64,000 bases of DNA from an uncultured Marivita sp. (lineage in GTDB: Bacteria; Pseudomonadota; Alphaproteobacteria; Rhodobacterales; Rhodobacteraceae). The position numbers were made by a program, and so were the translations under genes. Every line of letters begins with the position of its first letter. The stretch's first letter is position 1. Below, piece after piece: positions 1-30,183 of this stretch. The stretch is from NCBI RefSeq assembly GCF_947488135.1, contig NZ_CANKYW010000004.1, positions 248,001 through 312,000 of the forward strand, given 5' to 3'. The notes beneath the pieces are model-generated. The model was not told the DNA's origin, searched no databases, and saw only the letters and a list, made by a program, of their open reading frames with translations.

Positions 1-1464
1 GCCTATGACGACCTGATGGCCTTCACGCGCGAAACCGAGGCGCTGAGCCAGATCGCGGGCCGCTTGGGCTGGGACCAGGAAACGACGATGCCGCGCGGTG
101 CCGCCGCCCAACGGGGCGAGGAAATGGGGGCGATCGAGTCGGTGCTGCATGCCCGTCGCATGGACCCGCGCGTGGGTGAGTGGCTGGAGGCGGCCAAGCC
201 GAAGGATGAAGAGGCCAAAGCCAACCTGCGCCATATCCGGCGCAGCTTTGACAGGGCGTCAAAGGTGCCTGCGGACCTCGCCGCGGAACTGGCGCGGACC
301 ACCTCTGTCGCACAGGGCGTCTGGGCCGAGGCGCGCGCCAATGACGACTTCGCGGCCTTTGCGCCGACGCTGGAGCGGGTTCTGGACTTGCGGCGCCAGG
401 AAGGCGCGGCACTGGCGGATGGGGGCGACCCCTATGACGCGCTGTTGCAGGATTACGAGCCGGGGGCGACGGCGGCCGAACTGGATGCGATGTTCGGTGC
501 GCTGCGGCCCCGCCTCGTGGCGTTGCGGGACAAGGTGCTGGGCGCCCCTGCCCCGGCGGCCTTGACGGGAGCTTTCGACGAAAGCGCGCAGATGAAGCTG
601 TCGCGCCAGATCGCCAAGGTCTTTGGCTACGACATGAGCCGCGGGCGCGTCGACAAGGCGGTGCATCCGTTCAGCTCCGGGTCGGGCAATGACGTGCGGA
701 TTACGACACGGACGAACCCGGTCGATCCGTTCAACTGCATCTATTCGACGATCCACGAGGTCGGTCATGCCGCCTACGAGCAGAATATCGACCAGGCTTA
801 CCTGCTGACACCCCTCGGGCGCGGTGTGTCGATGGGTGTGCATGAAAGCCAGAGCCGGATCTACGAGAACCAGTTGGGCCGGTCGCGGGCGTTTACCGGC
901 TGGCTGCATGGGCAGATGGTCGATGCGTTCGGAGAGTTCGGGATCGCCGATCCTGAGGCATTCTACGGCACCGTGAACCGGGTACACAAAGGCTTTATCC
1001 GCACGGAATCGGACGAGGTGCAGTATAACCTGCACGTTCTTCTTCGGTTCGACCTCGAGCGCAAGCTGATCGACGGGTCATTGGATGTCGCTGATCTCGA
1101 AGAGGCTTGGAACACTCGGTTCGAGGCGGATTTCGGCTATCCGGTCGACAAGCCGTCGAACGGCGTGTTGCAGGACGTGCATTGGTCCGTTGGTTTGTTC
1201 GGCTACTTCGCCACCTATTCGCTGGGCAATGTCTATGCCGGGTGCCTGCACGAGGCGCTGCGCAAGGCGGTGCCGGATCTCGATGCACAATTGGCGGCGG
1301 GTGATACCTCTGCGGCGACCGGATGGCTGCGGGACAACCTGCAACGGCATGGCGGGCTTTATGAGCCGCGCGACGTGATCGAGCGGGCCTGCGGGTCTGC
1401 CCCGTCTGAAGCGCCGTTGTTGGAGTATCTCGAGGCGAAGTTCGGAGAGATTTACGGGGTGTAG
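1..1464 (+). CDS. M32 family carboxypeptidase (Taq type), 5' end outside window
   Basis: Zinc metallo-carboxypeptidase that trims C-terminal residues from peptides in the cytoplasm. The reading frame is open from base 1 (A-Y-D-D-L before the first Met at 16), so the true start lies just upstream and only a few residues are missing. The metal-binding HEVGH motif lies at 754-768 inside IHEVGHAAYEQN, and the M32-type segment HESQSRIYEN follows about 30 residues later. About 487 residues are visible, close to the family's usual 490-500. It ends at a TAG with no close downstream partner. The family call is firm; the substrate is unknown. Confidence 0.93.
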   Translation, partial: AYDDLMAFTRETEALSQIAGRLGWDQETTMPRGAAAQRGEEMGAIESVLHARRMDPRVGEWLEAAKPKDEEAKANLRHIRRSFDRASKVPADLAAELARTTSVAQGVWAEARANDDFAAFAPTLERVLDLRRQEGAALADGGDPYDALLQDYEPGATAAELDAMFGALRPRLVALRDKVLGAPAPAALTGAFDESAQMKLSRQIAKVFGYDMSRGRVDKAVHPFSSGSGNDVRITTRTNPVDPFNCIYSTIHEVGHAAYEQNIDQAYLLTPLGRGVSMGVHESQSRIYENQLGRSRAFTGWLHGQMVDAFGEFGIADPEAFYGTVNRVHKGFIRTESDEVQYNLHVLLRFDLERKLIDGSLDVADLEEAWNTRFEADFGYPVDKPSNGVLQDVHWSVGLFGYFATYSLGNVYAGCLHEALRKAVPDLDAQLAAGDTSAATGWLRDNLQRHGGLYEPRDVIERACGSAPSEAPLLEYLEAKFGEIYGV

Positions 1465-2382: not shown

Positions 2383-2594
2383 ATCAATTCTGCCGACACG
2401 AACAGGTTGGATCTTTCGCAATTCCCCAATTATTGCGAAGGCCAAAGAAAAACGGTCTTTGGTCCCACTGCTACAACAGATTTCGGCGTTCTAAAAAATA
2501 CAGATCCGCACACGCCGGAGCGGAAAGCTTCGCCAAGACAAGGTTACCGATTGCCCGCAAACAGATCGTAAGATGGTTTTAACGCCTATCGGAC

Positions 2595-2867
2595 TTAGTG
2601 CAGTTTGAATTCCCCCACCACCTGCTGCCACTCGCCCGAAGACAGCAGCTTGCGGTGCGTGTACTGCACCGAGTGCAAAGGGCCTTCGATCGTGTCCTGC
2701 CAGAATTCGATGAATTCGAACAGTTTGGGGTGGTCCGGCGCCAGGTCGTATTCCTGCCAGACGAAGGTGTTGAGCACATTCCTGTAATCGGGCATGCGGT
2801 AAAACAGTTGCGCCGTGGTCAGCCCGTATCCGCGGAGCATCAACTCGGTTTCACTCATCTCGGTCAT
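2595..2867 (-). CDS. usg: Usg family protein
   Basis: Small conserved alphaproteobacterial protein of 90 aa, named after an ORF near trp genes in other species; biochemical role unknown. Family features seen: LMLRGYGLTTAQLFYRMPDY, TFVWQEYDLAP, then a Leu/Phe-rich segment. ATG at 2867 is supported by GAGG 6 nt upstream on the minus strand; a second Met three residues in is possible. It stands alone here, divergent from gyrA and convergent toward the VPLPA-CTERM gene, so context says nothing about its job. Confidence 0.85.
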   Translation of the reverse strand: MTEMSETELMLRGYGLTTAQLFYRMPDYRNVLNTFVWQEYDLAPDHPKLFEFIEFWQDTIEGPLHSVQYTHRKLLSSGEWQQVVGEFKLH

Positions 2868-3071
2868 GCAAACCTCATACGTTTTTTATTGTACCAAAGA
2901 GTTTGCCACGGATTCGTTGCTTTTCAATAAAAACAGTGTGTTAGCCAGAAGGGCGCTTGAGTGCCAAAGCACGGCTGCCACTAAATTGGTCAAGTGGATT
3001 GCGGCCTACATCCTGTCTCTGATATACAGTTGCTCAACAAAATATAGAAATACAGACAGCAGGCTATCCAC

Positions 3072-5807
3072 GTGAGCGACACGCCAGAAACTCCTGATAA
3101 CACAGAAGATATGCCGCCTGAACGCCCCAAATACACCGGGCCGCAGGTGTCGATCACCGAGGAGATGAAGACCTCGTATCTCGATTACGCCATGAGCGTG
3201 ATCGTGAGCCGGGCGATTCCCGATCTTCGCGATGGCCTGAAACCGGTGCACCGGCGCATCCTGTACGCGATGCATGAATCCAACAACGGGCACGACAAAC
3301 CCTATCGCAAATCCGCCCGCCCGGTGGGCGACGTGATGGGTAAGTATCACCCGCATGGCGACAGCGCGATCTACGACGCGCTGGTGCGGATGGCGCAGGA
3401 TTTCTCCATGTCGCTGCCGCTGCTGGACGGTCAGGGCAATTTCGGCTCGATGGACGGCGATAACGCGGCGGCCATGCGTTATACCGAAGTGCGGATGGAC
3501 AAGCCCGCCGCCTATCTGCTGGCCGATATCGACAAGGAAACCGTCGATTTTCAGGACAACTATGACGGTAAGGATCGCGAACCGACGGTCCTGCCCGCGC
3601 GGTTCCCGAACATGCTCGTCAATGGTGCGGGCGGGATTGCCGTCGGCATGGCGACGAACATCCCGCCGCACAATCTCGGTGAAGTGGTAGATGCCACGCT
3701 CGCCCTGATCGAAGAGCCGGATCTGAGTTCCGAGCAGTTGATCGAATACGTCCCCGGCCCCGATTTTCCCACGGGCGGGATCATGTTGGGCCGGTCCGGC
3801 GCGCGCAAAGCGTATCTTGAGGGGCGCGGCAGCGTCATCATCCGCGCCAAGACGCGGGTCGAGGAGATCCGCAAGGACCGCTGGGCAATCGTCATCGACG
3901 AGATCCCCTATCAGGTAAACAAGGCGACGATGATCGAACGTATCGCCGAAGCCGCGCGCGAAAAGCGGATCGAGGGCATCGCCCATGTGCAGGACGAATC
4001 CGACCGCAATGGCGTGCGCGTGGTGGTGGAGCTCAAGCGCGATGCGACGGCAGAGGTGGTGCTGAACCAACTCTTCCGCTTCACGCCGATGCAGACCTCG
4101 TTTGGCTGCAACATGCTGGCGCTGAACGGTGGTCGGCCCGAGCAGTTGACCCTGCGCAAGTTCCTGACCGCCTTCATCGACTTCCGCGAGGACGTGGTCG
4201 CGCGCCGCACGGCGCACCTGTTGCGCAAGGCCCGCGAACGCAGCCATATCCTGTGCGGTCTGGCCGTGGCGGTTACGAATATCGACGAGATCGTTGCGAC
4301 GATCCGGTCGTCGGCGGATGCGGGCGAAGCGCGGGAACGGCTGATGACCCGGCGCTGGCCCGCCGCCGAAATCCTGCCCTATATCAAGCTGATCGACGAT
4401 CCGACCCACACCGCAAACGAGGACGGCACCTATAACCTCTCCGAGGCACAGGCGCGCGCCATTCTGGAACTGCGGCTGCAACGCCTGACCCAGATCGGGG
4501 TCAAGGAAGTCACCGACGAATTGGAAGAGCTGGCCGGCAAAATCCGGGAATACCTGGAGATTCTTGGCAGTCGCGACCGGATCATGGGGATCATCTCTGA
4601 TGAACTGCGCGAGGTGCGCGAACTGTTCGCGGTGCCGCGCCGGACCGAGATCGTCGACTGGTCGGGCGACATGGAAGACGAGGACCTGATCGAGCGCGAG
4701 GACATGGTCGTGACGGTCACGCAGTCCGGCTATATCAAGCGCACGCCGCTCGCCGATTTCCGCGCGCAAAAACGCGGTGGCAAGGGCCTGTCGGGCATGT
4801 CGACCAAAGATGACGACGTCGTCACCACGCTTTTCGTGGCGAACACCCATACGCAGCTTCTGTTCTTCACGACCGAAGGCATGGTCTACAAGCTCAAGAC
4901 CTGGCGCTTGCCGCAAGGGGGACGCACCTCCAAGGGCAAGGCCATCGTCAACATCCTGCCGATCCCGACGGGTGTGTCCATCGCCGCGATCATGCCGGTG
5001 GACCGGGACGAAAGCGATTGGGACGATCTCCAGATCGTATTCGCCACCACGGCGGGGGACGTGCGCCGCAATGCGCTTTCGGATTTCACCAACGTGATGC
5101 GCAACGGCAAGATCGCGATGGACCTGCCCGAGGGTGTCGAACTAGTCAACGCGCGGATCGCGTCGGAAGAAGATGACGTGATGCTCGTGACCGACTCTGG
5201 CCGTGCGATCCGCTTCCCGACCACGGCCGTGCGGGTCTTCAAGGGGCGCAAGTCCACCGGTGTCAGGGGCATTCGCCTAAATAACGGAGATCGCGTGGTC
5301 AGCATGGCCGTGATCCGCCATTTCGAGGCCGATCCAGCGGAACGGGCCGCCTATCTCAAGATGCGCCGCGCGGTGGCGGGTCTGGCCGATGATGCCGAGA
5401 TCGAGGATGACGAGGACGCGACCGCACCCGGTTCGATCACGCAGGAACGCTATGCCGAAATGTCGGCGGCAGAGAACCTGATCCTGACGATCACCGCCAA
5501 GGGTGCGGGCAAGCTGTCGTCCAGTCACGACTACCCGGTGCGCGGACGTGGTGGCCAAGGCGTGCAGGCCATCGACAAGGCCATGCGCGGCGGCGCTATC
5601 GTGGCGTCCTTCCCTGTCGAGATGGATGACCAGATCATGCTTGCGACATCGAAGGGGCAGTCCATTCGGGTTCCGGTGGACGGGATCTCGTTCCGGTCGC
5701 GCAGCGCGGGCGGAGTCAAGGTGTTCAACACCGGCGCGGACGAAGAGGTGGTCTCGGTCGCCTGGATCGCGGATCAGGGCGACGAAGACGCCGGGGCCGA
5801 GGAATAG
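3072..5807 (+). CDS. gyrA: DNA gyrase subunit A
   Basis: Breakage-reunion subunit of type IIA topoisomerase; with GyrB it introduces negative supercoils using ATP. The N-terminal half has the quinolone-pocket segment [10 protein letters not shown] with the usual Ser and Asp, so this looks like a quinolone-sensitive allele. The catalytic Tyr lies in [11 protein letters not shown]. The C-terminal beta-pinwheel carries the GyrA box as QKRGGKG, which separates GyrA from ParC. At 911 aa it is longer than E. coli GyrA, with an acidic insert ([12 protein letters not shown]) late in the pinwheel, typical of alphaproteobacteria. The start is GTG 3072, with CAGCAGG about 8 nt upstream. It is monocistronic with a strong terminator behind it. 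Confidence 0.97.
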
Positions 5808-5859
5808 ACCACTTTGCGTGAGGTGACTTCGTTAGGTCACTGATCGGATGAAATATTTG

Positions 5860-5887
5860 AACGGCGCCGGGCATCCTCGGCGCCGTT
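5860..5887 (+). terminator. Rho-independent terminator of gyrA
   Basis: Ten-bp perfect GC-rich stem AACGGCGCCG / CGGCGCCGTT with an 8-nt loop (GGCATCCT), followed by TTTCT. It begins 53 nt after the gyrA stop. Confidence 0.85.
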
Positions 5888-6284
5888 TCTCGTGAGGGCT
5901 GGGTATCGCATTTCATGCCCCGCGAACCCGCCCTGACACGGGGCGGGAATTTCCAGTAGCCGCGGTTTCACACCTAATTCACGGGAAAAACGGACGTGGT
6001 TCGGATATCCCAAGGGCGCGCTCACCGAGCGTCGAGCGCATTAAGTGACGAGTAGAAACAAGTAAAAGGCAGCATGTTTGGCTCGGCCTTGTATTCTTCC
6101 AGGTCGGACCCGTCGGAGCCTCCCTCTGACGCATGCTGCCGGTAAATTTCTAATGTTGGTAACGTTTTAGGTAGTCCTTTTAACATCGCGCCGGGGCTGT
6201 TCCCCATTCAGCCTCGGTGCAGCTTTTCAGAACAGTGGCCCGATCCCCGGCGCGAAGGTGGTCGGGCCGATTTCCGGAGTTTTT
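5888..6284. other. Gene-free stretch with a long nested inverted repeat
   Basis: About 400 nt with no convincing gene. It holds a nested inverted repeat: GGCAGCATG (6068-6076) pairs with CATGCTGCC (6132-6140), and inside it GGCTC (6080-6084) pairs with GAGCC (6116-6120). Transcribed, this would give a roughly 73-nt stem with internal loops. A T-rich run (CCTTTTAAC) lies near 6176. This could be a small RNA or a structured leader. A 54-61 codon ORF on the minus strand lacks a ribosome binding site and was not accepted. Confidence 0.35.
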
Positions 6285-6716
6285 ATGTCCGATTTCCTCG
6301 ACCTCATGCGCGCCTATCCCGATCTTCTGCAAGCGAGCGGTGTGCTTGGGTCCGTCATCTATGTCGGCGGCTTCGCTCTGGTTCAGTCGGGCCGCACCTG
6401 TGGCAACGGATCGGCCTACTCGGCCAGCAAGATCGTCGCGGCCATCCTGGTGCTTGTCAGCCTCGTCGGAGCGTTCAACTTGGGGGCCTTTCTGATCCAG
6501 ATCGGGTTTATCGGTTTCGGCCTTTGGGGGTTGCTCCGCCAGTCCGCGAGCAAGGCGCGGGTCATCTCCGTCACTCCGCCAGCCGACTATGCTCCGAGCG
6601 CACTTGATGTTCGAGGTGACTCGCCAGAGACTTCCGGTTGGGAAAGTCATCGACGCGTACCGGCGGGTGATACACCAGTTCCACCTTACCCTGCCGCCGC
6701 TGTGCCAGCACCTTGA
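6285..6716 (+). CDS. Small membrane protein, CBU_0592-like
   Basis: Predicted inner-membrane protein of 143 aa. Residues 10-90 carry three hydrophobic segments with the pattern GSVIYVGGFALVQSG, then SKIVAAILVLVSLVGAFNLGA, then IQIGFIGFGLWGL, which resembles the uncharacterised CBU_0592 family as I remember it. ATG 6285 has GGAG 5 nt upstream. The conserved part ends near residue 90; the Pro/Ser-rich remainder (about residues 96-143) is encoded on the opposite strand of the 3' end of olsA, a 146-nt tail-to-tail overlap. Either the overlap is real or the gene has run past a lost stop. Function unknown. Confidence 0.6.
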   Translation: MSDFLDLMRAYPDLLQASGVLGSVIYVGGFALVQSGRTCGNGSAYSASKIVAAILVLVSLVGAFNLGAFLIQIGFIGFGLWGLLRQSASKARVISVTPPADYAPSALDVRGDSPETSGWESHRRVPAGDTPVPPYPAAAVPAP

Positions 6717-7398
6717 TGAGGTGGTCGGCAAACCCCATGTCGCCCCACCAGCCGTAAAAGCGCGGATCTACGCCTTCGGGCGGATGATAAATCACGGTCA
6801 CGGGCTGGATATGCATGTCGTGCATCAGCTTGTCCGAAAAGAACGGCGCAAAGAGTGTCGGCTTGAACGGAAGCACCCGCATTGTGTCGGTCGACGTGCC
6901 TTCGGGAAAGAACAACAGGCGGTGCCCGTGCTGGAGCCGTTCCTCGAACGTCGCGATCTGGTTTCTGACGTCGCGCGGATCGCGCTGGATGAACACCGTG
7001 CCCGTCGCGCGCGCCAGCCAGCCGATCCCGGGCCAGGACGCGACCTCGGATTTTGAAACGAAATAGACGTTCTTGCGGGCGTTCAGCGCGAAGATGTCGA
7101 TCCAGGACCCGTGATTGGCCACCACTGCGCCCGGCACTTTCATGCGGGGCCCGCGCACGAGAACGGCAATCCCCATGATGACCAGCGCCGCGCGACAGAC
7201 CGATTGGGTGATGTACGGCGTGACCGGACGATCGGTGCCGAAGATCGGCCGTTCAAATAGTCGTAGGAGCAGCAGTACGCCAAGCCCCCCGAACACGACG
7301 ATCCCCAACACGGTGCCCCGTGCCGCGACCCGGACCCATCCCATCGGTGAGACAGGTGCCGAAACCGAAGGCTCGTCGCTGTCCCAGGTAGGGCTCAT
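6571..7398 (-). CDS. olsA: Lyso-ornithine lipid / 1-acylglycerol-3-phosphate acyltransferase
   Basis: Membrane-associated PlsC-family O-acyltransferase, 275 aa. It has one hydrophobic N-terminal helix (about residues 27-47), motif I as NHGSWID, in which Asn-His replaces the usual first residues of HX4D, and motif III FPEGTS. It overlaps the upstream OlsB-type gene by 4 nt (ATGA), the usual olsBA coupling, which argues for lyso-ornithine lipid as acceptor: OlsB adds a 3-hydroxyacyl chain to ornithine and OlsA adds the second chain. A general PlsC role in phosphatidic acid synthesis cannot be excluded from sequence. Confidence 0.8.
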   Translation of the reverse strand: MSPTWDSDEPSVSAPVSPMGWVRVAARGTVLGIVVFGGLGVLLLLRLFERPIFGTDRPVTPYITQSVCRAALVIMGIAVLVRGPRMKVPGAVVANHGSWIDIFALNARKNVYFVSKSEVASWPGIGWLARATGTVFIQRDPRDVRNQIATFEERLQHGHRLLFFPEGTSTDTMRVLPFKPTLFAPFFSDKLMHDMHIQPVTVIYHPPEGVDPRFYGWWGDMGFADHLIKVLAQRRQGKVELVYHPPVRVDDFPNRKSLASHLEHQVRSEHSRLAE

Positions 7399-8165
7399 GC
7401 GGCCCGCCGGTCGGGGAACTGCAAGAGGGAAGGATCGAGGTCTGATGCTTTGAGGATCACGCAGACATCGACACTGTTGAAGGCGTGATCGACATAGACG
7501 CCCTGCCCGATGAATCCGCCCAGCTTGAGGTAGGATTTGATCAGCGCCGGCGTGTCACGCATGGCGCGCTTGCGGTCGATCCGGTCGGCGGGCAGAAGCG
7601 CGATATCCCGCTTCATTCGGGATGTGACGCGCAGGTCTGGCGGCGCGAGGAACCGGCGATGCAGGTCGGAAATCGGATGTTGCAAGGCTGCGGCGTCGGT
7701 CCCGCGAAAGCTGGCCGTGCCAAAGAGAAGCTCGATACCGCGATCCGACACGTACTCCGCCACCCCGCGCCACAACGCCATGAGAGCCGCACCGCCACGA
7801 TAATCCGGGTGCAGACAACTGCGGCCCAATTCCAGAAGGCGCAGGCCGCTGGTTTCAAGCGGCGTCAGGTCGAATTCCGACGCCGAATAAAATTCGCCCG
7901 CCCGATCCGCTTGGGTCTGCGTCATAAGCCGGTAGACCCCGACTATCTGATCCGTCGCGCCGGAGGTCAGACGCGTGTCGCGGAGCAGCAGATGGTCGGC
8001 ATGCGCATCGAAGGCATCCGTTTCGAGCCGGTTTTCGTGGTCGACCCCGTCACCGTCGCTGCCAAATTCCGTGACGAACACATCGTAGCGCAACCGCTGC
8101 GCCGCGCGGATCTCGGCCTCCGACCGGGCCAGGGACACCTGAAAGGGGGTCGCGCTTTGAAGCAT
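7395..8165 (-). CDS. olsB: L-ornithine N-alpha-acyltransferase (OlsB type, GNAT fold)
   Basis: First enzyme of ornithine lipid synthesis: transfers a 3-hydroxyacyl group from ACP to the alpha-amino group of ornithine, a phosphate-free membrane lipid useful under phosphate limitation. The protein of about 256 aa has the family run AAQRLRYDVF near the N-terminus, LLELGRSCLHPDYRGGAALMALW in the middle and LIKSYLKLGGFIGQGVYVD near the C-terminus. The start is uncertain: ATG 8165 and GTG 8177 are in frame and neither has a clear Shine-Dalgarno. It is coupled to olsA by a 4-nt overlap. A divergent paralogue lies at 12070-12831. Confidence 0.8.
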   Translation of the reverse strand: MLQSATPFQVSLARSEAEIRAAQRLRYDVFVTEFGSDGDGVDHENRLETDAFDAHADHLLLRDTRLTSGATDQIVGVYRLMTQTQADRAGEFYSASEFDLTPLETSGLRLLELGRSCLHPDYRGGAALMALWRGVAEYVSDRGIELLFGTASFRGTDAAALQHPISDLHRRFLAPPDLRVTSRMKRDIALLPADRIDRKRAMRDTPALIKSYLKLGGFIGQGVYVDHAFNSVDVCVILKASDLDPSLLQFPDRRAA

Positions 8166-28052: not shown

Positions 28053-29129
28053 TCAGTGCAGAACCCCCGGTGCGTCGGCGCGTGCGAAGCCGTGGAAGAA
28101 CTCCTCGAAATGCTGTGACGACGTTTCGGCCTGCGTCAGAACAGACATCGCTTCTGGGGACAGGGCGTCTTCCATGTGAAGGCGCATGCTGATCCAGTCA
28201 CCGCTGCGGGCCTCGTCGAGATTGAACATCGCTTCCGACATCTCGCGCATCGGCGTTGCCCGGTCGCTGCTGTGGTCAAAGCGCATCCGGTCATAGACGA
28301 AGCCTTTGACGAAAGCCGCATCGCCGGTGATGGCCTGATGCCAATTGCAGACCAGAAATTCGTGGTAGTCGTCCTGCACGTTGACGGCCGGCCCATCCGT
28401 GACGCTGAACAAGGCGGTTTCCCGCTTGAGCCAATCGGACCAGAGTGCGGGCGGCGTGTCACCGGCATAGTGCATGGCGATGCAGATTTCCGACAGAAGG
28501 TCGGCGTTCTGTTCGATATAGGCCAGCAAACCAGCGAAATGCAGGCTCCGCTTTGCCGCGTCGTCCAGTTCCGGATCGCGGCGGCCGTATTCACTGAGGT
28601 AGAAAACAAGGTGGGTCAGTTCATACGCGGCCTTCTTGTTCGGCAGCGCAAAGGTGTCTGACCGGGCCATGAAGCTGCGCGCACGGGCGTCGAGTGCGGC
28701 AAGATCGCCTGACACCGGGACACCCCGTCGCGCAAAGAGCCGCGTGGCCTCCATGCGTTGCAAATCGGAAAGCTCTGCTTGCGGAAGGTCTTGATCGTTC
28801 GCCCAACGGACCAGCTTTTCGCCTTGGTCGCCCGGCATACCGAGGTCTTCGAGATCCAGAACGATGGACAGGAAGAAGCGGTAGTATTGCGGGAAAAAAC
28901 GCATCCGTTTTTCAACGGTGGCGTAGAACGCGGAATAGGTCTCCAGCGCCGCATCGCCGGGGCGGGTGCCGGTGCACTCCAGGACGTTGAGAATCTCGGC
29001 ATTTTCCTTGAGCCAGAAAACGTCGTCGCCAAAGCGGCGGTGTTCGGAAAAGCAGCTCAGAAGCGCGCCAAGACGCGCTTCCTGAGGGTTGATCCGGGAC
29101 GGGGGGGTAAGTTGAATGACGTTTGTCAC
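28053..29129 (-). CDS. Unrecognised 358-aa helical protein, partner of FTSGL-repeat gene
   Basis: I do not recognise this family. The 358-aa protein is predicted soluble and largely alpha-helical, rich in aromatic residues and His, with no signal peptide or membrane helix. Distinctive segments are FFPQYYRFFLSIVLDLEDLG (79-98), AYELTHLVFYLSEYGRR (168-184), EICIAMHYAGD (214-224), DDYHEFLVCNWHQA (253-266) and QHFEEFFHGFARAD (339-352). The spacing of His and acidic residues could bind a metal, but no known motif is met. GTG 29129 is well supported by AAGGAGG 8 nt upstream, inside the 59-nt gap after the repeat gene, so the two form an operon with the repeat gene first. Confidence 0.75.
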   Translation of the reverse strand: MTNVIQLTPPSRINPQEARLGALLSCFSEHRRFGDDVFWLKENAEILNVLECTGTRPGDAALETYSAFYATVEKRMRFFPQYYRFFLSIVLDLEDLGMPGDQGEKLVRWANDQDLPQAELSDLQRMEATRLFARRGVPVSGDLAALDARARSFMARSDTFALPNKKAAYELTHLVFYLSEYGRRDPELDDAAKRSLHFAGLLAYIEQNADLLSEICIAMHYAGDTPPALWSDWLKRETALFSVTDGPAVNVQDDYHEFLVCNWHQAITGDAAFVKGFVYDRMRFDHSSDRATPMREMSEAMFNLDEARSGDWISMRLHMEDALSPEAMSVLTQAETSSQHFEEFFHGFARADAPGVLH

Positions 29130-29188
29130 GGTACATGCCTCCTTGAAGGTCGGAGGACGGGTCGCCCCGTCCCGGGTCATTGGTCCGA

Positions 29189-29851
29189 TCAGAGACCGGA
29201 GGTGAACGCCTGGACTGCGTCGCCGTCGCGGGAGTCGGTGCTGGTCGCGACAAGACCCGAGGTGAAGAGCGCGGTCGCGTCACCGTCGGAGGTCTTGGTG
29301 CCCTCGGCGGAGAGGCCCGAGGTGTAGAGACCCGTTGCGTCACCCGCAGTAGTGTCCGTTCCCCGTGCGCTCAGGCCGGATGTGAAAAGCTCCACGTTGT
29401 CGCCGGTGCTGGCGTGAGTGCCCTGTGCGGACAGGCCGGATGTGTAGAGACCGGTCGCGTCGCCCGCTGTGGTGTCGGTGCCTTGGGCGCTCAGGCCGGA
29501 TGTGAACATCTCGACGGCATCGCCAGTGCTGGCTTGTGTCGTCTGCGCTGCAAGGCCGGACGTGAAGAGACCTGTTGCGTCCCCTGCGCTGGCCTGGGAC
29601 CGCTGTGCGGACAGACCCGAGGTGAACAGACCTGTGGCGTCGCCGGCAGAGGCGCTTGTGGACCGGGCTGACAGGCCGGACGTGAAAAGACCCGTCGCAT
29701 CGCCGAGCAACGCGTCGGTCGAGCAGTCTGCCGCCAGACCGGACGTGAAGAGCGCCGTTGCATCACCGCCGTGAATATCGGCGTGCTGGTCCATATGCTG
29801 CTGATTTTCTGTGAGGTTTTCGGTAATCTGGAATTTACGAACTGCGGTCAT
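29189..29851 (-). CDS. FTSGL tandem-repeat protein (20-residue repeats)
   Basis: 220-aa protein of unknown function. A 29-residue unique N-terminus (MTAVRKFQITENLTENQQ, then HMDQHADIHGG) is followed by ten copies of F/Y-T-S-G-L spaced 20 residues apart (first spacing 21), consensus GDATGLFTSGLSAQGT with four variable positions. The protein ends exactly on the tenth FTSGL. Units 5-6 and 7-8 form a 40-residue higher-order repeat. There is no signal peptide, no membrane helix and a single Cys. ATG 29851 has AGGAGG 5 nt upstream, an ideal site implying high expression. It may be a beta-solenoid, a scaffold, or a multi-core precursor peptide; none is proven. Confidence 0.8.
   Translation of the reverse strand: MTAVRKFQITENLTENQQHMDQHADIHGGDATALFTSGLAADCSTDALLGDATGLFTSGLSARSTSASAGDATGLFTSGLSAQRSQASAGDATGLFTSGLAAQTTQASTGDAVEMFTSGLSAQGTDTTAGDATGLYTSGLSAQGTHASTGDNVELFTSGLSARGTDTTAGDATGLYTSGLSAEGTKTSDGDATALFTSGLVATSTDSRDGDAVQAFTSGL
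29192..29764 (-). repeat. 60-bp coding tandem repeats
   Basis: About nine and a half 60-bp units encoding the FTSGL repeats. At DNA level the most constant part on the plus strand reads GGCCGGA(C/T)GTG followed by a variable triplet set and GTTGCGTC or close variants. Third-position differences between units show that the array is old or selected at protein level, not a fresh duplication. Confidence 0.85.
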
Positions 29852-30183
29852 GTTGGCCTCCTGTGGCTTGGTTGATGCCTCAACGCTGGCACGCTTAAAT
29901 TGAATTTGAGAAGAAGAATTATCGTTTAACGTGTTATCTGCCGCGTTATCCACATGAAGACACACCCATAGGTTGATACGGCTGCGCAACTCCTCGAGTT
30001 ATTAACAGAAAGCATTTTTCTGGGGATAACTCTTGGCGGCCTCGCTTCTGGCTTTGCCGTTGGCTGCCCCACCTGCCCTTGCGTCAGGTTTATCGCCCGG
30101 AATCCGGCTTTTCGATTCGTCGCAAACCGGCTTGTACGGTCGCGCCCTTCTTGGGATAGAGGTGCCACACCCGGAGGACGCAC
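29852..30183. other. Divergent intergenic region, repeat operon / xthA
   Basis: 332 nt between divergent starts, locally AT-richer (TTAAATTGAATTTGAGAAG near 29895) than the window. It must contain promoters for the FTSGL operon and xthA. I see no clear operator; a near-palindrome AACTCCTCGAGTT lies at 29989-30001. No convincing small gene. Confidence 0.4.

Follow-up and report, generated by a model that had tools for sequence, protein, structure and literature searches.

A 64,000-nucleotide stretch of DNA from an uncultured Marivita sp. (hereafter the window) carries a gene for a 220-residue protein built of ten repeated units, and the next gene on the same strand encodes a protein of the DUF6902 family. 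The repeat protein is probably the substrate of DUF6902 in a two-gene system that resembles ribosomally synthesised and post-translationally modified peptides (RiPPs) with a multi-core precursor, and the pair appears to represent enzyme-modified peptides of a family not described before. The analysis shows the pairing of the two genes, the anatomy of the repeat unit, a His/Asp/Glu/His set that DUF6902 has in common with the DUF6895 family, selection on the motif at the protein level, and the switching of the motif between genomes.

The repeat protein of the window

The repeat protein contains ten [FY]TSGL motifs (eight with Phe, two with Tyr) at residues 35, 56, 76, 96, 116, 136, 156, 176, 196, and 216, spaced by eight steps of 20 residues and one of 21. 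This anatomy had been described in an earlier note, made from the DNA letters and their open reading frames (ORFs), and its particulars largely held: the last motif forms the C-terminal end of the chain, a single Cys is present, units 5-6 and 7-8 form a 40-residue super-repeat (identical at 33 of 40 positions), and the gene has the very strong ribosome binding site that had been noticed, an AGGAGG 5 nt before the ATG. A non-repeat leader followed by units is likewise present, but its length is 28 residues and not the 29 proposed, since the repeat unit begins at Gly29. No signal peptide was apparent from hydropathy (best 15-residue mean 0.83 within the first 55 residues), as had been claimed, and a secreted adhesin or a signal peptide was rejected on the grounds that the N-terminus is not hydrophobic.

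The repetition of the motif is not due to chance: FTSGL occurs eight times in the protein, and no 5-mer occurred more than three times in 5000 residue shuffles. Tandem Repeats Finder reported periods of 60 and 120 bases in the gene, and the codons for T, S, G, and L vary from unit to unit along the array. An N-terminus of the form M[TS]A.. is common to many of 29 aligned relatives, and a Shine-Dalgarno-like 5-mer was found ahead of 55 of 76 relatives, for which start sites were guessed, versus 205 of 3160 random ATGs.

The earlier note could name no family with this repeat, and library searches bore this out: Pfam returned no family up to E = 10, the NCBIfam rows (E = 2.1 and 2.6) were at chance level, and the sequences of the PDB gave a single chance row (E = 0.8). 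None of the known RiPP precursor families in Pfam and NCBIfam gave a profile match to the window protein. The 29 relatives gave Pfam and NCBIfam rows that were scattered over unrelated families and in some cases reached E = 2.1e-10 in single or few relatives, which is typical of low-complexity repeats. The RiPP family FlmA was among 20 such scattered families, with 3 of the 29 relatives matched and a best E of 0.039; passages of PMC12703449 describe FlmA as a peptide-arginase substrate, which is another kind of system. A phage origin was also rejected, as viral contigs held no DUF6902 relative and the repeat protein gave only a weak PHROGs row (E = 0.071). When the proteins of its own genome were searched, the repeat protein matched only itself.

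Pairing of the repeat gene with DUF6902

The protein downstream of the repeat gene matches PF21843 (DUF6902) over positions 2-351 of 351 (E = 1e-174, 580.9 bits, cut-off 27) and part of the PF21836 profile (DUF6895; positions 21-233 of 289, E = 1.1e-25, 91 bits, cut-off 23.8). Judged by these matches, it is a relative of DUF6895 and not a typical member, as DUF6902 fits far better. All 63 members of DUF6902 set A1 also match DUF6895 at an E of 0.1 or better.

The best 80 of 178 confirmed DUF6902 relatives were analysed as loci. Each of the 79 readable loci has a repeat ORF upstream of DUF6902 that ends no more than 350 nt from it, the 80th locus being unreadable at this point. Orthologues with conserved repeats, on which the earlier note had staked its proposal, are abundant. 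A second sample of 295 genomes from the window's family, which overlaps the first in that the same contigs recur, contained 82 genomes with DUF6902, 71 with a match to the repeat protein, and 70 with both. In all 70, a repeat match lies on the contig of DUF6902 at a distance of at most 817 nt, including one genome (G250) in which this adjoining match was weaker than another at the edge of a different contig. The repeat match found without DUF6902 (G043) is an off-frame low-complexity stretch. Twelve genomes had DUF6902 without a repeat match; on reading, nine of them have a diverged upstream repeat gene, with motifs that include YIAGL, FTTSM, MMCCS, MMSCS, LSPSC, and FSSTC, one lies at a contig edge, and two (G039 and G288, which are loci L163 and L172) have no repeat gene in the stretch read. 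In total, 79 of 82 genomes with DUF6902 have a repeat gene upstream of it. In a phylum-wide sample, DUF6902 was present in 4 of 299 genomes, each of them from the same family as the window, and it was absent from all 14 control genomes; a plasmid search found no plasmid-borne DUF6902. One locus (L168) carries two successive precursor genes ahead of one DUF6902 (1620-1880, FTSGS-type, and 2001-2255, FGSSC).

An alignment was built of 97 DUF6902 proteins, of which 81 are close (the window's among them) and 16 distant, together with nine DUF6895 proteins. Of 20 fetched regions, four gave no row in this alignment: L174 is without DUF6902, L169 was missed by the filter, and L177 and L178 lie on contigs that the set already included. 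His190 and Asp227 are kept in 81 of 81 close and 14 of 16 distant DUF6902 proteins and in 9 of 9 DUF6895 proteins, Glu231 and His273 in 81 of 81, 15 of 16, and 9 of 9, respectively, and Trp56 in every aligned protein of both families. L163 and L172 are the only 2 of 97 DUF6902 proteins in which His190 and Asp227 are replaced, and these are the same two loci that have no repeat gene; their DUF6902 proteins may be decaying or repurposed orphans.

The motif is nearly uniform within genes and varies between genomes

The motif was counted in 77 genes, the window included, after 4 of 81 had been omitted as masked or truncated. These genes contain 4 to 20 units (median 8), and the four residues after the aromatic residue fall into 21 dominant tetrads; distant homologues have as few as two units, as in L164, L166, and L169 with just two motifs in about 60 residues. 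Units had been chosen by the motif itself in this count, and a recount anchored on Gly at -6 and F/Y/I at position 0 gave 613 anchors, of which ten departed from the dominant tetrad of their gene (four off-register false anchors and six real departures). The dominant tetrad is thus present in 603 of 609 true anchored units, and all six exceptions are in L092, which alternates CSWS and SSLS, and L105, which alternates TSGS and TTSA, as if one gene made two products; this would be expected of a two-product precursor.

Mean identity within genes at positions +1, +2, +3, and +4 is 0.981, 0.982, 0.975, and 0.984, while the corresponding means between genes are 0.547, 0.882, 0.460, and 0.498. In the flanks, identity within genes is 0.627 at -1 and 0.683 at +5, and about 2% of residue pairs are unlike at the motif versus 16-71% at non-anchor flanking positions. 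When the first anchored unit is compared with the last (two genes with a false first anchor included), a mismatch at the motif positions is seen in 1-3 of 77 genes and one at position -8 in 74 of 77. Pairs of codons for the same residue differ at a rate of 0.51-0.57 at the motif, 0.38-0.60 in the flanks, and 0.17 at the aromatic residue; in L103, the serine at +2 is encoded by TCC in four units and by AGC in five, a swap that needs more than one base change. Because synonymous codons vary while the residues stay, selection on the protein keeps the motif uniform, and not recent copying alone.

On a tree of 81 DUF6902 proteins with 77 labelled rows, the tetrad changes at least 26 times, an approximate count given a quick tree method and low support for 32 of 78 inner branches. 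One such change separates L089 and L090, whose DUF6902 proteins are 0.044 substitutions per site apart and whose leaders differ at two residues: all six units of L089 read FSSGS and all seven of L090 read FTSGS, with one unit of L089 absent from L090 and extra copies of another unit in L090. The nearest relatives of the window (DUF6902 77-82% identical, mostly Marivita records) have TSGS, TSAS, MSAS, TCGL, and TTSC where the window has TSGL. The two same-species pairs in the set share their motif (TSCA in L124/L132 and TSWS in L101/L136). The earlier note had suggested Ser/Thr as residues that might be modified; each of the 21 dominant tetrads of the 77 genes has Ser, Thr, or Cys at +2, but the distant homologue L164 (YIAGL) has Ala. 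On its C-terminal side, the boundary of the motif is uncertain, since positions +5/+6 are often Ala-Pro or Gly-Pro inside arrays, yet outside the TSWS type the majority of arrays stop at +4.

Extra motifs 8 residues after the previous one occur in 12 genes (FTSGLVQMFTSGL; in L116, FSSCSVELFSSCS), which are L087, L091, L094, L115, L116, L118, L119, L120, L123, L125, L134, and L139; 11 of the 12 are of xSGL type and belong to one clade of the tree. Met at position 123 of DUF6902 was considered as a co-variant of Trp at +3. All 12 of the 12 main-clade FxSWS proteins have this Met, as do L101/L136, but so do L108, L163, L170, L173, and L180, and the co-variation was therefore not convincing.

Small peptide genes beside DUF6895

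Eight DUF6895 loci were read closely, two from Pseudomonadota genomes (L144 and L145) and six of seven matching plasmid records (L157-L162); L150, L151, and L156, with DUF6895 matches below the family cut-off, were omitted from the precursor reading. In six of the eight loci, a small ORF of leader-core layout lies directly upstream of DUF6895 (Table 1). The leader element [SA]G[IL][LIV][DN] is present in the small peptides of five of these six loci (not L145), and those of L144, L145, and L158 have a core of the form G[PR]W[FY]. Eight of the small peptides linked to DUF6895 had no NCBIfam match and no Pfam match above cut-off; from their sequences, these peptides of unrelated bacteria look like a further undescribed precursor family. 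In L161, a Streptomyces plasmid, the region 2451-7688 holds a P450, a 62-aa peptide, two tandem DUF6895 proteins, and a serine hydrolase.

Shi et al. (ACS Catal., 2026) reportedly describe, by the title of their paper, an epimerase of the DUF6895 family that takes part in the modification of lasso peptides. Five plasmid DUF6895 regions list no lasso-peptide genes in their annotation tables, although no search aimed at such genes was made. In the literature searched, DUF6895 was met only in the reference list of PMC13352647, the part of that article in which the 2026 epimerase study is cited.

Proposed mechanism

The leader of about 28 residues and the ten near-identical units that follow would make up a multi-core precursor. 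In each unit, the enzyme probably recognises Gly-[Asp/Glu] at -6/-5 and the aromatic residue at 0, and the four residues after the aromatic (TSGL in the window) would be the part that defines the product. DUF6902 probably modifies a residue in or beside the pentapeptide, unit by unit, with His190, Asp227, Glu231, and His273 as candidate acid/base residues. Epimerisation to a D-residue would be the leading chemistry because a relative in DUF6895 has been published as a peptide epimerase. Host proteases may then free short peptides, or the modified array may work intact. The parts of this scheme differ in strength: an enzymatic action of DUF6902 on the repeats is quite likely, the release of short peptides has about an even chance, and epimerisation, suggested by the kinship with DUF6895, is a tentative assignment that falls somewhat short of that.

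The earlier note had named two candidates for the repeat protein. The one in which a leader with multiple cores is modified by the downstream protein is well supported, because of the pairing with DUF6902, the kinship with DUF6895, the small peptides in 6 of 8 DUF6895 loci, and the paired loss of repeat gene and conserved residues; the other, a solenoid, is less likely but is the form modelled by AlphaFold2, with a confidence (pLDDT) of 72. An extension of the precursor reading, which I consider unlikely, is a species-identity system of roseobacters, in which each species would produce in bulk, from its multi-copy precursor, a single short peptide in modified form that probably contains D-residues and whose sequence would label the species, either as a pheromone or as a signal for recognising self. 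This would explain the near-uniform motif within a gene, the free codons, the all-copy switches, and the shared motif in same-species pairs, and L089/L090 would then show the label being changed.

Several observations weigh against a modified multi-core precursor. AlphaFold2 models the repeat protein as a beta-solenoid (pLDDT 72.4, predicted template modelling score (pTM) 0.69) that spans residues 31-218 with block values of pLDDT of 68-82, while the first 27 residues of the protein stay under 50; PMC11795689 describes a method bias that bears on beta-solenoid prediction. DUF6902 was modelled as nearly all-helical (pLDDT 92.6, pTM 0.88) and matched no PDB structure at E below 0.2 and no PDB sequence better than E = 0.97, and with no match among solved structures the catalytic role of its four residues is drawn from conservation alone. 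No clear co-variation was found between DUF6902 residues and motif type. Neither a protease nor a peptide exporter nor an immunity gene was recognised among the top recurrent neighbours in 80 loci, which leaves maturation and release unexplained. Among the plasmid DUF6895 loci, L161 and L162 have no small ORF directly upstream (a small ORF lies three genes from DUF6895 in L161, and none was seen in L162), and a partial one-strand reading of L152-L155, which have weaker DUF6895 matches, gave no convincing precursor. Finally, the link to an epimerase comes from the title of a paper, and the paired loss amounts to two cases.

Alternative explanations

The model of the repeat protein would fit an intact beta-solenoid with one 20-residue rung per unit, serving as a scaffold or at the surface, whose rungs DUF6902 binds or modifies. 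Uniform motifs would then be ladders of residues stacked along the solenoid, and such stacking would favour identical residues in successive rungs. However, Foldseek found no PDB match to the model at E below 0.13, and as a general form the solenoid is at odds with the motifs 8 residues apart in 12 genes, with the two-motif homologues L164, L166, and L169, and with the unlike motifs that alternate in neighbouring units of L092 and L105; I regard it as improbable, though it deserves to be kept in mind. The weak Foldseek rows included FapC (E = 0.13) and CsgA (E = 7.4), and the window protein has repeats of about 20 residues rich in Ser, Thr, Gly, and Ala, as a functional amyloid or a curli-like fibre subunit with imperfect repeats might have. 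Such a fibre is nevertheless very unlikely, as the protein has no signal sequence by hydropathy, no secretion gene was recognised among the recurrent neighbours, the repeat proteins carry a strong negative charge (median -16 in 74 genes), and the adjacent gene has a conserved putative active site.

The repeat protein might instead be a decoy or titrating ligand whose units are binding sites for DUF6902, with no chemistry on the repeats and DUF6902 acting elsewhere, for example as a regulator. That only the repeat gene and DUF6902 were seen to stay together so strictly, that every unit presents the same site, and that DUF6902 is all-helical without a recognisable enzyme fold would all agree with this. 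On the other hand, the conservation of His190, Asp227, Glu231, and His273 across DUF6902 and DUF6895 suggests an active site over a binding surface, DUF6895 proteins adjoin peptides with one or two cores, and the motif varies among close relatives whose DUF6902 proteins are about 80% identical, which would be odd for a strict binding site; a decoy is hence quite unlikely. Least probable, to the point of being nearly negligible, is that the homogeneity of the repeats reflects only recent gene conversion and unequal crossing-over, with a motif that has no functional meaning. The range in copy number and the existence of recent tandem duplicates, such as four L090 units with identical motif codons, would agree with this, but codons differ at the motif as often as in the flanks, the serine codons of L103 are split between two types, and first and last units mostly differ in their flanks while sharing the motif. 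The diversity of the codons led to the rejection of recent gene conversion as a full account of the uniformity.

Genomic setting

The coordinates of the two genes, and of the small peptide genes beside DUF6895, are given in Table 1. The GTG is the likely start of DUF6902 because the family consensus begins MxNVIQL, and an AAGGAGG (29138-29144) lies ahead of it. Further out in the window, genes for Exo_endo_phos and BolA proteins lie to one side of the pair, and genes for an Fe-S_biosyn protein and a phosphohydrolase of the HD-domain type lie to the other. Of the 80 related loci, at least 70 also carry the HD-domain gene and at least 53 the nuclease gene. These counts from mechanical ORFs are lower bounds, as even DUF6902, which all 80 loci have, was clustered in only 66 of them, and clusters among the top 25 were recognised by eye. 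One cluster, kilobases downstream in 26 of 80 loci, resembles a cation/proton antiporter. The recurrent neighbours look like housekeeping genes. The site is conserved in many genomes, and the pair resembles a stable insert of two genes there. A conserved hairpin between the repeat gene and DUF6902, of the sort that some peptide operons have, was rejected as a general feature (mean z -0.35, below -2 in 9 of 75 loci, -0.2 in the window).

Table 1. Positions of the repeat gene, the DUF6902 gene, and the small peptide genes beside DUF6895 (window features in window coordinates, others in the coordinates of their locus).
Locus	Feature	Position	Strand	Remarks
Window	Multi-copy precursor-like gene	29189..29851	minus	220 aa; stop codon included
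Window	Leader	29768..29851	minus	residues 1-28; without repeats or hydrophobic signal sequence
Window	Array	29192..29767	minus	ten units G[DN]xxx[LMA][FY]TSGL; last motif is array end
Window	Ribosome binding site	29857..29862	minus	AGGAGG, 5 nt ahead of precursor ATG
Window	DUF6902 gene	28053..29129	minus	probable GTG start at 29129; longest ORF begins 29180
L144	Small peptides	751-951 and 1153-1350		two paralogues of 65-66 aa; ends ...GRWYVYVGTEE and ...GPWFVLAGDQT
L145	Small peptide	2838-2407	minus	one gene with two such cores
L157	Small peptide	4398-4658		unlike the others
L158	Small peptide	5747-5953		end ...IGPWYAYHTLEQEQVEQ
L159	Small peptide	5329-5685		GYVLAW[ED][RK]YVLVV, common to L160
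L160	Small peptide	5708-5905		GYVLAW[ED][RK]YVLVV, common to L159

Significance and comparison with known systems

No paper containing the term DUF6902 was found in the literature searched, the matches listed for the motif strings dealt with other subjects (skin grafts and the like), and the titles listed for RiPPs with Rhodobacteraceae or for multicore precursors included nothing on a system of repeats and DUF6902. The uncharacterised DUF6902 gains a likely substrate from this analysis, and the pair offers a minimal two-gene test system for peptide chemistry of the DUF6895 type. The precursor goes unrecognised by the Pfam and NCBIfam libraries. The pair also raises the evolutionary question of how all copies of a motif, 4 to 20 per gene, come to change in concert in the protein while the codons behind them remain diverse. 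Were the peptide released, marine bacteria would have in it a small-molecule trait that is widespread and differs between species.

Among the closest known systems is the DUF6895 family: DUF6902 matches PF21836, has Trp56, His190, Asp227, Glu231, and His273 in common with all nine aligned members, and resembles it in the small peptide gene that lies directly before DUF6895 in most loci read closely. The two differ in that DUF6902 is a Pfam family of its own, found only in the window's family in the samples searched, and in that its partner is usually a multi-copy array while that of DUF6895 has one or two cores. In beta-solenoids and functional amyloids, the likeness is limited to a repeat length near 20 and a beta prediction, and the lack of a fold match, the 8-residue spacings in 12 genes, the two-unit homologues, and the adjacent DUF6902 set the repeat protein apart.

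Multi-core RiPP precursors, such as cyanobactin cassettes and fungal dikaritins, consist of a leader followed by short core copies that are split by recurring flanks, and the repeat protein has the same layout. To my knowledge, no enzyme of a known RiPP class adjoins the repeat gene, and the system differs further in that the core is uniform within a gene and varied between genomes, and in that none of the recurrent neighbours was recognised as a peptide transporter or protease gene. Yeast precursors of the alpha-factor type hold many identical short peptides in one pro-protein, with a peptide that differs between species. The likeness to these is one of design only: the repeat protein also has many near-identical copies of a short motif that varies between genomes, but it is bacterial, has no secretion signal by hydropathy and no identified receptor, and is paired with a dedicated protein.
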